A DNA stretch of 40,751 nt from Gemmataceae bacterium (GTDB lineage: Bacteria; Planctomycetota; Planctomycetia; Gemmatales; Gemmataceae), in assembly GCA_025055215.1 (NCBI GenBank), contig JANWYO010000172.1:1-40751 (forward strand), written 5' to 3'. This document shows positions 2,277-14,734 of this stretch, one piece after another. A model generated the notes under the pieces. It was not told the origin of the DNA. It did not search any database and saw only the letters and a list, made by a program, of their open reading frames with translations. The translations under genes and the position numbers were made by a program. Position 1 is the first letter of the stretch; every line of letters begins with the position of its first letter.

Positions 2277-3260
2277 ATGAAAGCGGCGATCTTTGAGCGT
2301 TTCGGAGAGCCGGCCGAAGTCCTTCAGCTGCGCGAGGTTCCTCGGCCCGCGCCTGGCCCGGGCCAAGTCCGAGTCCGCATGCTGGCCAGCCCCATTAACC
2401 CCTCCGACCTCGCCATGATTCGCGGCGTTTACGGCCAACGGCCCAGGCTACCGGCGACGCCTGGCTTCGAGGGCGTGGGGGTCGTCACGGCTGCTGGCCC
2501 CGGTTGGCTCGGCCGGCTGCGCAAGGGCCGACGTGTCGCCGTCCTCAATGCCCAAGGCGGCAACTGGCAAGAGGAGGTCGTCGTCCCCGCTCGCCACGTC
2601 GTCCCGATTCCTACTGACATCCCGGACGAGCAGGCGGCGTGCTTTTTCGTGAATCCCGCCACGGCCGTGGTGATGGTGCGGCACGTGCTTCGGGTACCCC
2701 GCGGCGCCTGGCTTCTGCAAACCGCCGCCGCGAGCGCCCTCGGCCGGATGGTCGTCCGCCTGGGCCGACATGACGGCTTCCGCACCCTGAACGTCGTTCG
2801 CCGCCGCGAGCAAATTGACGAGTTGCTCCGGCTCGGGGCCGACGCGGTCGTCTGCACGGCCGACGAGATACTGCTGGATCGCGTCCGCGCCCTCACGGAT
2901 GGGGTGGGGGTCCCCTTCGCCATCGACCCCGTTGGTGGGCCGCTGACTGCTCAACTGATCGAGACCTTGGCCCGACATGGCCGACTGCTCGTTTTCGGTA
3001 CGCTCTCCGGCGAGCCGATGACGCTTTCGCCCCGCGACTTGATGGTCGGCCACAAAACCATCGAGGGTTTCTGGCTCTCGGAGTGGGCCCGCGATCAAGG
3101 ACCACTGACGATGCTCCGCCTGTTCCGTGGCATCGTGCGGCTGATGCGGCGCGGGGTGCTGACGACCGAGGTGGCGGCGATGTATCCGCTCGAGCAGCTG
3201 GCCGCCGCCGTGGCGGCGGCCAGCCAGGCGCGAGGCAAGGTGCTGCTGCGGTTTGCCTGA
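2277..3260 (+). CDS. MDR-superfamily NAD(P)H-dependent oxidoreductase (quinone / 2-enoyl thioester reductase type)
   Basis: A 327-residue medium-chain dehydrogenase/reductase. The N-terminal GroES-like domain includes INPSDLAMIRG and ATPGFEGVGVV. The cofactor domain starts around NPATAVVMV (about residue 125). GFEG replaces the GHE of zinc alcohol dehydrogenases and the structural zinc cysteines are absent, so a zinc-independent reductase of the quinone oxidoreductase or mitochondrial enoyl-reductase (MECR/ETR) branch is most likely. The glycine-rich nucleotide loop is atypical (AAASALGRMVVRLG). The ATG at 2277 has GGAGG ten bases upstream. The gene stands alone between HU (divergent) and lipA (same strand, over 120 nt away). 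The exact substrate is not evident. Confidence 0.88.
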   Translation: MKAAIFERFGEPAEVLQLREVPRPAPGPGQVRVRMLASPINPSDLAMIRGVYGQRPRLPATPGFEGVGVVTAAGPGWLGRLRKGRRVAVLNAQGGNWQEEVVVPARHVVPIPTDIPDEQAACFFVNPATAVVMVRHVLRVPRGAWLLQTAAASALGRMVVRLGRHDGFRTLNVVRRREQIDELLRLGADAVVCTADEILLDRVRALTDGVGVPFAIDPVGGPLTAQLIETLARHGRLLVFGTLSGEPMTLSPRDLMVGHKTIEGFWLSEWARDQGPLTMLRLFRGIVRLMRRGVLTTEVAAMYPLEQLAAAVAAASQARGKVLLRFA

Positions 3261-3379
3261 GCCAAGCCACGCTCTTGAGGTGGCATGCGCCACAGGAACT
3301 TGGGTTGGGCTGATCGGCACCGCATCTCGATGCTCCGTCGTGGCGCCCGCCCGCGCGTTCGCCTAGTCATCCGGGCGCC

Positions 3380-3385
3380 TATAAT
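3380..3385 (+). promoter_or_regulatory. TATAAT -10 box directly in front of lipA
   Basis: A perfect TATAAT ends one base before the first ATG (3387) and 7 nt before the second in-frame ATG (3393). Transcription from it would begin at about 3392-3393, giving a leaderless mRNA starting on the lipA ATG. No good -35 hexamer is visible at 16-18 nt; TTCGCC at 3358-3363 is the nearest. Confidence 0.4.
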
Positions 3386-3392
3386 CATGGAT

Positions 3393-4313
3393 ATGCGACC
3401 CCTGCCGCTGGTATCCACTGCCACCCACTTACGAACCGAGCCAAGGCGTCGACTGCCGCCGTGGCTGAAGCGTCCGCTGCCCCGAGGCAATGAGAATTTC
3501 TTCACGCAGCAACTTCTGCGGGACTTGCGGCTGGAGACGGTGTGCGAGAACGCCCGTTGCCCTAATCGGCCGGAGTGCTATGCCCGCCGCACGGCGACGT
3601 TCATGATTCTGGGGAATGTCTGTACTCGGCCCTGCGGCTTCTGTTCGGTGCCCCGGGGTCAGCCCGCGGCCGTGGCCGACGACGAACCAGAGCGCTTGGC
3701 CGAGGCGGCCGCCAGGCTGGGGTTGCGGCACGTGGTCATCACGTCGGTGACCCGGGACGACCTGCCCGATGGCGGAGCGGAGCATTTCTATCGCTGCATC
3801 CTAGCGGTTCGCCGCCGCACCGGCGCGACGGTGGAGGTATTGACGCCGGACTTTCGCGGCCACGCCGCGGCTATCGACCGGGTCGTCGAGGCCCGACCGG
3901 AAGTTTACAACCACAATCTGGAAACCGTGCCTCGACTGTACCGCAAGGTCCGCGGCCTGGCCGACTACCGCCGCAGCCTCGATCTTTTGGCCCGAGTCAA
4001 GCGGACCGATCCGAGCATCATCACGAAAAGCGGCTTGATGCTGGGGTTGGGAGAAACGATCGACGAGTTGTTCGATGTGTGGGCCGACCTGCGCGCCGTG
4101 GACTGCGATGTCTTAACCCTGGGCCAGTACTTGGCGCCGACGTTGAAGCACATCCCGGTGGTGCGCTATGTGCCTCCCGCGGAATTCGACCGCCTCGGCG
4201 ACTTGGCACGGTGCTTGGGGTTCCGGCAAGTCGCCAGCGGGCCGTTTGTCCGCTCCAGTTATCACGCCGAGGAGTTGCTACCTGACCATGCAGAGGGCCA
4301 TCGTCCTGCCTGA
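3393..4313 (+). CDS. lipA: Lipoyl synthase (radical SAM)
   Basis: LipA inserts two sulfurs into protein-bound octanoyl groups to make lipoyl cofactors. Both iron-sulfur sites are present: the auxiliary-cluster motif C-x4-C-x5-C ([12 protein letters not shown]) and the radical-SAM C-x3-C-x2-C (CTRPCGFC). The C-terminal R-S-S-Y signature that closes on the auxiliary cluster appears as [10 protein letters not shown]. Length is 306 residues with the ATG at 3393; an ATG two codons upstream (3387) is also possible, and the frame stays open back to 3285, but that part is not LipA-like. The 3' end overlaps the next small gene by 26 nt. No lipB or pyruvate dehydrogenase genes are in the window. Confidence 0.96.
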
Positions 4314-12206: not shown

Positions 12207-13103
12207 TCACGCCGGGAGGAGCTTCTGCTGGTGCCGCAACCGATGATTCTCAGCTTTGAGGGCGGCTAATTCGGTGTTCAAGTCACGCAGGGCCGTCCGC
12301 AGCAGGCGGTGTTGCTGCAAGTCCGCCACCAATCCCGGCCAAGTCAATTCCCGCCAGCGTTCTTCGGCTCGGTTTTCGCTCAAGGTAGGGTCTGGGTCAC
12401 ACGTGTAACCCAATTGGGTCAGAGGCCCAGGATGAGCTGCGGCGATGGCTCGGGCCACCGCGGCCGGCAGCACCTGCCGCCACAAGCCGGGTTGCCCCTG
12501 CCAGAAATGATGCGCCGCCGGAGCGTGCAGCGCTCGGATCGTGTCAAGACCGTTGGCAGCGATCGCCTCGTTGATCGACCGCAGGGGCCTCACGCCAAGG
12601 GCTTCCACCAGGCGCTGTAACTCCGTCTCGGGATGAGCCACGAGGTCTTCGTAGCGGAGTTTCAGACCCTCGGCGCATACCCACCACGCCGGCGTGATCG
12701 ACAACAGGGCGGCCGCACGGGGGCCGGTCGCGTACTGCAAGAATGCCGCGCTGGTCGGCCCGACGCCGACGATGGCCTCCTCGTTGCCTCCCTGACCCAA
12801 TAGCCAGCGGTCGGTTGGCCCGTGCAGGACGAAGTGCAGGATCGACACCAGAACGTCCAGAGGGTGCCGGGCCAAAGTCAGCCAACGGAAGCCATGTTGC
12901 CGGAGTCGGCCACGGAGTTGCTCCTCCGGCCGCCAGTGGAGAATGAGCACGCAGCGTGGCGGCAGGGTGTGCCACGAGACATATGGGGGCGCGTTGGGGG
13001 CCAGCCGTTCGAGATGGTACAGGGCACTGAGGAGGTGCTGCACCCAGATGTTGCCGGAACGGGGCGTGCTCAGGATCGCCAAGCGAAGTGGGAGTTCCCT
13101 CAT
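12207..13103 (-). CDS. Sulfotransferase-domain protein
   Basis: A 298-residue protein with the PAPS-dependent sulfotransferase fold. The 5'-phosphosulfate loop appears as LSTPRSGNIWVQHLL (about residues 10-24), in place of the usual P-K-S-G-T-T-W. The 3'-phosphate site is LARHPLDVLVSILHF near residue 90. A later LKLRYEDLVAHPETELQRL block is typical of the family's C-terminal half. The last 35 residues look like a short coiled coil (LRDLNTELAALKAENHRLRHQ). The ATG at 13103 is chosen because the frame upstream starts at GTG in Pro-rich sequence. The loop substitutions Asn-Ile for Thr-Thr make activity less certain. Acceptor unknown. Confidence 0.85.
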   Translation of the reverse strand: MRELPLRLAILSTPRSGNIWVQHLLSALYHLERLAPNAPPYVSWHTLPPRCVLILHWRPEEQLRGRLRQHGFRWLTLARHPLDVLVSILHFVLHGPTDRWLLGQGGNEEAIVGVGPTSAAFLQYATGPRAAALLSITPAWWVCAEGLKLRYEDLVAHPETELQRLVEALGVRPLRSINEAIAANGLDTIRALHAPAAHHFWQGQPGLWRQVLPAAVARAIAAAHPGPLTQLGYTCDPDPTLSENRAEERWRELTWPGLVADLQQHRLLRTALRDLNTELAALKAENHRLRHQQKLLPA

Positions 13104-13133
13104 CGAGGCGTGCGCGGGTGAACGGGGAGGCCT

Positions 13134-13165
13134 GGGCACGAGGCGGCCTTGGCCGCCTCGTGCCC
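13134..13165 (-). terminator. Perfect 15-bp hairpin after the SpoVG-like gene
   Basis: GGGCACGAGGCGGCC (13134-13148) and GGCCGCCTCGTGCCC (13151-13165) pair fully around TT. In practice the innermost pairs would open to form a loop. It starts 21 nt past the spoVG stop and lies upstream of the sulfotransferase-like gene on the same strand, so it should split them into separate transcripts. No U-tract. Confidence 0.65.
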
Positions 13166-13186: not shown

Positions 13187-13765
13187 TTACAGAATGCCCG
13201 CTCCGAACCCGGTGGAGCGGTCGTCCTCACTGGTGGCCACCGAACTGGACTTGGCGTGGGTGCCCCGCGGAGCGTGCGAGCCGTGGCTGCGGTAGTTGCC
13301 TCGGGTAGTGTTCAGCTCGCTGACGATCTGCGCGTAGCTGTCGTCATAGTCGGCGTCCAGATCGTCGTAGGTACAGACGTAGCCGGGCAGCTTGGCCCGC
13401 TCCTTTTCTTCGTGATAGGCCTTGATGACGGCGTTCTGGATGATTTCGCGGCAAGCGGAATTGATGGGGTGGGCGATGTCGGCGTGGAGCTTGGCTCGGC
13501 CGTCCGGGCCGCGGAGGGCGCGGTTTTCATCCAGGCGGGTGCCGCAGTGATTGCAGTTGCGCGCCCGCAGGTGGTTTTTCGTGCCGCATTGCGGGCAGCG
13601 ATCGGTCAGTTTGCGACTCGGCATGGCCACGAAATACCCCTTGGGGCCCTCGATGATTTTCAGATCGCGGACCACAAAGGCATTGTCGAAGGTGATCGAG
13701 CAGAAAGCCTGGAGGCGTTCGTTGTTCTCCTCGACCAGCTTGATGCGAACTTCGGTGATGACCAC
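13187..13765 (-). CDS. spoVG: SpoVG-family protein with an inserted zinc ribbon and long C-terminal tail
   Basis: A 192-residue protein; SpoVG proteins are normally about 85-100 residues and act as site-specific nucleic-acid-binding regulators. The SpoVG core is split. Residues 1-52 contain [30 protein letters not shown] and YFVAMPSRK. The second half resumes at [25 protein letters not shown] (about 96-120). Between them lies a zinc ribbon with CPQC (57-60) and CNHC (71-74). A 70-residue acidic then Ser/Gly/His-rich tail follows. The GTG at 13765 has AAGGAG 8 nt upstream, and the SpoVG core begins at its first residue. It follows ispE on the same strand, as ispE precedes spoVG in Bacillus with two genes between. 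Confidence 0.9.
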
Positions 13766-13849
13766 AGTTGTTCTCCTTTTCGTCTGTGGCACACTCCCAA
13801 TCGCCGAAGAAAAGGCGGGCCACGTGGCCAGCCGACTTTCCACGGCGAG

Positions 13850-14734
13850 TCACCAGCAACTTCGGACCACCCCGATGCGTGGCTGAACGTCCTCGTTCAG
13901 CATGGTGGCCACGGTTCGGGCCAAGCCGAGGGCCTCGCGCCGGCCCCGGCACAGAGCAAACAGACTGCTGCCGCTGCCGCTGAGCAACACCCCGGCCGGC
14001 TGCAACCGCGCCAGCCGGGCGTGCCAGTCCGCCACTAAGGGACAGAGCCGCTCCGCGGCCGGCTGCAAGCGATTGTGCAACAGTTGGCCGACGGCCGCGA
14101 TGTCGCCGTCGGCCACCGCCTGGCCTATCTCCTCGCCGGAGCGTGGTTCGCGTGGGACCTCCACCTGCCGATAGACCTCGGCCGTGCTCAGTCCCACCGG
14201 CGGGCAGACCAAGACGAAATGCAAAGGGCACCCCACAGGATGGGGAGTCACCCGTTCGCCTCGGCCGGTGCACCAGGCAGCCGGCGTGCTGAAGAAGAAC
14301 GCCACGTCACTGCCCAGTTCCGCGCCCAGATCGGCCAGTTCGTGGGCCGACAGGCCCAGTCCCCATAGCCGGTTCAGCCCGAGCAAGGTGGCCGCCGCGT
14401 CGCTTGAACCTCCGCCCAAACCTGCGGCCAGCGGGATGCGCTTCGTCAAGCGAATGTCAGCCCCGCCGGGATGGCCGATCCGTTGCCGCAGCCGGTCCGC
14501 CGCTCGGAGCACCAGGTTGTCCGGCCCAGCAGAGAGGGTCGGGTGATCGCACCTCAACCGAACCACCCCCGGCTCTCCTGGTTTGAACTCCAGCGTGTCG
14601 TACCAGCTGACCGCCAACATCAGCGTGGCGATCTCGTGGTAGCCATCATCCCGCTTGGCCAGCACTTCCAGGAAGAGATTGACTTTGGCCGGTGCCCAGA
14701 CCACCACGGCGTCAGCCTGCTGCTCGCTCACCAT
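13850..14734 (-). CDS. ispE: 4-diphosphocytidyl-2-C-methyl-D-erythritol kinase
   Basis: IspE phosphorylates CDP-ME in the non-mevalonate (MEP) isoprenoid pathway. This 294-residue protein has the N-terminal APAKVNLFLEVLAKRDDGYHEIAT substrate segment. The GHMP-kinase ATP loop is PLAAGLGGGSSDAAATL, and the C-terminal motif is GVLLSGSGSSLFAL. Length fits the family (about 280-310). The ATG at 14734 gives a short N-terminal extension before the first strand and has no clear Shine-Dalgarno. SpoVG follows 84 nt downstream on the same strand. No other MEP-pathway genes lie in the window. Confidence 0.95.
   Translation of the reverse strand: MVSEQQADAVVVWAPAKVNLFLEVLAKRDDGYHEIATLMLAVSWYDTLEFKPGEPGVVRLRCDHPTLSAGPDNLVLRAADRLRQRIGHPGGADIRLTKRIPLAAGLGGGSSDAAATLLGLNRLWGLGLSAHELADLGAELGSDVAFFFSTPAAWCTGRGERVTPHPVGCPLHFVLVCPPVGLSTAEVYRQVEVPREPRSGEEIGQAVADGDIAAVGQLLHNRLQPAAERLCPLVADWHARLARLQPAGVLLSGSGSSLFALCRGRREALGLARTVATMLNEDVQPRIGVVRSCW

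Follow-up and report, generated by a model that had tools for sequence, protein, structure and literature searches.

The window analysed here is a stretch of 40,751 nucleotides from a Gemmataceae bacterium, and the gene of interest, spoVG, occupies positions 13187..13765 on its reverse strand. The gene begins with a GTG codon at 13765, encodes a protein of 192 amino acids and is preceded by a ribosome-binding site (AAGGAG) that can be read at 13773..13778 on the same strand. Residues 1–119 of the protein match the Pfam SpoVG family (PF04026) over model positions 1–82, at 1.2e-27 and with 96.3 bits against a cut-off of 29.6. Against the stricter equivalog PRK13259 (NF009749) the score is 94.9 bits, below the cut-off of 108, with the match split in two by an insert. 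The protein is a member of the SpoVG family that lies outside this strict equivalog, and no other SpoVG turned up in the genome.

Directly upstream of spoVG lies ispE (13850..14734, reverse strand; TIGR00154 at 2.9e-61, above cut-off), its stop codon separated from the spoVG start by 84 bases. This arrangement is widely shared: 77 of 80 named planctomycete loci have a same-strand ispE upstream of spoVG. In the Firmicutes, the gene order is ispE-purR-yabJ-spoVG. Overlapping spoVG and ispE frames excepted, no further conserved neighbour was found in more than eight of the 80 planctomycete loci. Directly downstream of spoVG in the window is a sulfotransferase-like gene (12207–13139, reverse strand), which is not prominent among the recurring spoVG neighbours in related genomes.

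In SpoVG proteins of solved structure, two conserved sequence blocks, VAMPS(K/R)(K/R) and DI(A/T)HPIN, align about seven residues apart. In the window protein the VAMPSRK block ends at residue 52 and the DIAHPIN block begins at residue 96, leaving 43 residues between them against seven in Bacillus subtilis SpoVG. This inserted segment (residues 53–95; 13481..13609, reverse strand) stands in place of the short loop of ordinary SpoVG and comprises a zinc ribbon followed by a basic return arm. The ribbon core (residues 55–78; 13532..13603, reverse strand) has the pattern C57-x2-C60-x3-N64-x6-C71-x2-C74-G75 and was recognised through a match to the DZR family, the invariance of its key residues and structural matches. 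The DZR match (PF12773) covers residues 57–78 with a score of 27.5 bits, barely over the cut-off of 27.3. An earlier note on this DNA had proposed that a zinc ribbon splits the two halves of SpoVG, and the paired SpoVG and DZR matches and the widened spacing bear this out; the added tail of about 70 residues that it described is also present, 73 residues following the SpoVG domain.

Conservation across the Planctomycetota and in viral contigs

Of 59 relatives, 53 yielded a SpoVG, as did 172 of 294 genomes sampled from the phylum, and nearly all of the strong full-length matches listed span approximately 340–378 bases for a model of 246 bases, that is, they include the insert. Across 119 SpoVGs sampled phylum-wide, C57, C60, N64, C71, C74 and G75 are invariant, as is R51, with K63 retained in 118 and K52 in 117; the ribbon spacing C-x2-C-x3-N-x6-C-x2-C is kept in 118. 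In a second set of 66 aligned proteins, consisting of named records, viral contigs and the window protein and including members of the Gemmataceae, Isosphaeraceae, Pirellulaceae, Phycisphaerae, Sedimentisphaerales, Brocadia and Scalindua, every protein matches both SpoVG and DZR (the latter at E ≤ 0.01). With all four cysteines retained in every one of the 119 proteins and a DZR match in 66 of 66, the ribbon is far beyond chance, and the concern raised in the earlier note that the cysteines might vary among orthologues can be set aside. Nor is the ribbon peculiar to the window protein: it is a fixed trait of the phylum, which rules out a one-genome peculiarity or an assembly error, and the insertion itself was published in 2012 (PMC3444138).

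Gupta et al. (2012) identified an insert of 32–36 amino acids in the SpoVG of all planctomycetes then sequenced and in none outside the phylum (PMC3444138). This planctomycete signature indel is the same insertion, used there as a phylogenetic marker, and the words zinc and cysteine are absent from the paper. The insertion was therefore already known, but it appears not to have been described there as a zinc ribbon.

The only planctomycete SpoVGs seen to lack the insert are short divergent paralogues. Some planctomycetes encode such extra SpoVG-like proteins (L082, L083, L125 to L129, L131 to L133 and L138; one type reads GLLGWAS...FPxRxDRxG), which have neither the ribbon nor the VAMPSRK and DIAHPIN blocks. 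There are also diverged second copies of the ribbon type (L134, L136, L137 and L139), which keep all four cysteines and in some of which the basic doublet formed by residues 51 and 52 is partly lost. In the genome collection, sampled through the best 80 of at least 595 relatives, one candidate ribbon SpoVG outside the phylum came to light, on a contig titled Bacteroidales bacterium (L147, JAIXLE010000258.1). Both its SpoVG and its ispE are Gemmataceae-like and its SpoVG nests among those of the Gemmataceae; the contig probably comes from a metagenome assembly that is mislabelled or contaminated, and it was set aside.

Ribbon-containing SpoVGs are also encoded on nine IMG/VR viral contigs (L225–L233). 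In L227 the gene (3001–3432) comes after genes for the portal and for head morphogenesis; in L233 (2995–3450) a gene for the terminase large subunit lies about 1.4 kb upstream. The spoVG gene of L233 is adjoined by genes for TIGR02996 proteins; the model name of this family, rpt_mate_G_obs, alludes to Gemmata obscuriglobus, and these neighbours suggest planctomycete hosts for phages of this type. No recognisable ispE lies near the viral ribbon spoVG genes within the stretches examined. In a tree of 133 short sequences that holds no cellular ordinary SpoVG and gives little resolution of the inner order, the ribbon proteins cluster together (80/80), apart from the ordinary SpoVGs of phages, with modest support. 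Within this cluster, the viral ribbon SpoVGs fall in at least two places among the host sequences, again weakly supported, which suggests that phages of planctomycetes took up the ribbon spoVG, possibly more than once. Other viral contigs (L234–L248) encode an ordinary SpoVG lacking the insert; many of these contigs are large, several of L234–L245 measuring 150–470 kb. In phage and plasmid collections, no further match is longer than an ordinary SpoVG.

Predicted structure, nucleic-acid-binding surface and tail

An AlphaFold2 model of the window protein, built with 65 homologues, has a mean pLDDT of 76, rising to 88 over residues 61–70 and 93 over residues 71–80, and is poor in the tail. The model matches B. 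subtilis SpoVG (2IA9) with a Z-score of 12.8 over 86 residues at 2.9 Å, and its residues 49–79 superpose on the RanBP2-type finger 2GQE at 1.5 Å over 31 residues. A second model, of a Brocadia homologue (pLDDT 84, from a smaller alignment that overlaps that of the window model), gives a SpoVG match with a Z-score of 13.3 and superposes on 2GQE at 1.8 Å over 31 residues. Further matches to the ribbon are mostly RanBP2-type fingers and the ribbons of archaeal ribosomal proteins, at about 1 Å over 25–26 residues. The zinc-finger matches have Z-scores of about 3 only, owing to the small size of the module (about 30 residues), and, searched by itself, the ribbon gives Foldseek E-values close to 1 or higher. 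The small deviations cover all of the ligand positions, which argues that the four cysteine ligands come together in the modelled fold; the possibility that they lie far apart, also raised in the earlier note, finds no support in either model, both of which superpose on solved zinc fingers.

The location of the ribbon within SpoVG can be related to residues mapped in other species. DNA binding requires a basic doublet, K50-R51 in Staphylococcus aureus SpoVG and R53-R54 in that of Borrelia burgdorferi, and in both proteins six residues at the start of a helix set the DNA sequence preference (PMC3688583). Alignment to solved SpoVG places the equivalent of the doublet at R51-K52 (13610..13615, reverse strand); the six residues correspond to 103–108 (13442..13459, reverse strand), at the start of a helix that runs from residue 103 to residue 124 in the window model. 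The insert is thus placed exactly between the equivalents of the mapped nucleic-acid contacts. It is also basic: the net charge averages +4.7 over 62 non-redundant homologues, 94% of which reach +3 or more, with basic positions in the ribbon and return arm at K63, R67, R/K77, R82, R90 and K/R92, among which K63, R67, R90 and K92 are conserved across homologues.

The tail (residues 125–192; 13190..13393, reverse strand) is modelled mostly with low confidence. Beyond residue 130 the tails of the 62 non-redundant homologues are variable and acidic, with a mean net charge of −7.3, and the window protein ends in the peptide FGAGIL (13190..13207, reverse strand). Half of the distinct chromosomal homologues (96 of 192) carry the corresponding pattern, F-[GSA]-x-G-[ILVMF], within their last ten residues, whereas shuffled tails would give 0.1; among 9,892 internal tail residues it turns up just twice. 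A search of the genome for codons specifying FGxGI, a hydrophobic residue and a stop found a single occurrence, at spoVG, and no other protein with this ending. In its sequence, the terminal peptide looks like a docking peptide, and the tail may engage a partner or shield the basic finger. The tail of SSB is likewise an acidic linker with a hydrophobic tip.

What the ribbon might do

The reading that we favour, at a probability of roughly 0.6, is that the insert is a structural zinc ribbon that extends the nucleic-acid-binding surface of SpoVG, with both zinc occupancy and nucleic-acid contact being part of what we infer. The ribbon would have been inserted early in the history of the phylum, between the strand bearing the doublet and the recognition helix, and kept since. 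Its four cysteines would coordinate a single zinc ion and keep a small basic finger beside the nucleic-acid-binding surface, so that one subunit could grip RNA or single-stranded DNA over a greater length, or in another shape, than an ordinary SpoVG does. The acidic tail and terminal FGxGI peptide would form a separate element, probably for docking or self-masking. We favour surface extension because the insert is basic and lies between mapped contacts, because SpoVG binds RNA in Listeria, where DNA is bound weakly and non-specifically (PMC4959528), and because diverged paralogues (L134, L136 and L137) keep the four cysteines despite partial loss of the doublet.

Basic charge and position alone are not proof of contact with nucleic acid, and ribbons of the same spacing also bind proteins. 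The ribbon might instead be a docking module, akin to the fingers of Nup153 or RYBP, that recruits SpoVG to the ribosome, RNA polymerase or an RNase. Several of the closest structural matches are indeed RanBP2-type fingers that bind proteins, in complexes with Ran or ubiquitin, and the residue after N64 is mostly histidine (88/119 homologues) where RNA-binding RanBP2 fingers have an aromatic residue (PMC6384913). That the insert is strongly and consistently basic, and sits between two mapped nucleic-acid contacts, makes docking doubtful. A plainer role, as a mere brace for the SpoVG fold or its dimer or tetramer interface, would fit the invariance of the ligands, N64 and G75, as a structural zinc site requires, and the replacement of a loop in the domain core. 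Ordinary SpoVGs (2IA9, 2I9X and 2I9Z) fold without a ribbon, however, and the conservation of K63, R67, R90 and K92 goes beyond the needs of a brace, which we consider improbable.

The earlier note spoke of a second binding or redox-sensing module, and its two halves have fared differently: the ribbon adjoins known nucleic-acid-binding residues, and binding seems the better reading. Pairs of CxxC can form disulfides, which would suit a switch that senses redox state or zinc and controls SpoVG binding, but the motif matches an ordinary structural ribbon and the four cysteines are as invariant in the strict anaerobes Brocadia (L176) and Scalindua (L193) and in phages as they are in aerobes. Redox sensing is unlikely as a shared role, and we give the sensor very little credence. 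Taking surface extension further, planctomycete SpoVG could be a two-part RNA regulator whose ribbon reads a short RNA motif of its own, a post-transcriptional regulator found throughout the phylum and repeatedly acquired by planctomycete phages to steer host or phage RNA; as a whole, this scenario is speculative and rather unlikely.

For SpoVG, a global regulator, it is still debated whether DNA or RNA is the molecular target, and DNA or RNA binding has been demonstrated for the Borrelia, Staphylococcus and Listeria proteins (PMC3688583, PMC4959528). A phylum of unusual cell biology has built a conserved second module into the loop between the two known contact sites of this protein, and the ribbon makes a direct test of its nucleic-acid target possible. 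What served in 2012 as a phylogenetic marker becomes a functional hypothesis, with phages added as carriers.

Comparison with known SpoVG proteins and zinc ribbons

A search of the papers covered found no relevant one linking SpoVG to a zinc ribbon, and no zinc-, RNA- or DNA-binding experiment on planctomycete SpoVG. What is new here is the identity of the insert as a basic zinc ribbon, its invariance across the phylum, its presence in phages, its place between mapped contacts and the conserved C-terminal peptide. In its fold, its VAMPSRK and DIAHPIN blocks, its basic doublet, its recognition helix and its linkage to ispE, the window protein resembles the SpoVG family (PF04026) as represented by the B. 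subtilis (2IA9) and Staphylococcus epidermidis (2I9X, 2I9Z) structures; it differs in having a 43-residue zinc-ribbon segment in place of a seven-residue loop, and in its long acidic tail with FGAGIL at the end.

The insert shares the pattern CPxCG...N...A.FCN.CG with DZR and related bacterial zinc ribbons (PF12773, PF13240, PF13248), but is a single ribbon, corresponding to the first half of DZR, nested within another domain. Several RanBP2-type fingers bind single-stranded RNA. With this family (PF00641: ZRANB2, RBM5, Nup153) the insert shares the Cys-x2-Cys-x3-Asn-x6-Cys-x2-Cys spacing and a backbone that agrees to 1.5–1.8 Å over 31 residues, whilst the window protein scores 12.5 bits against a PF00641 cut-off of 27. 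Measured against the published finger consensus (PMC6384913), the planctomycete ribbon lacks the tryptophan two residues before the first cysteine (residue 55 is aspartate in 86 of 119 homologues, and tryptophan is found there neither in the window protein nor among the residues tabulated) and mostly lacks the aromatic residue after the asparagine. For these two reasons its sequence places it outside the RanBP2 type, and recognition of GGU is not predicted.
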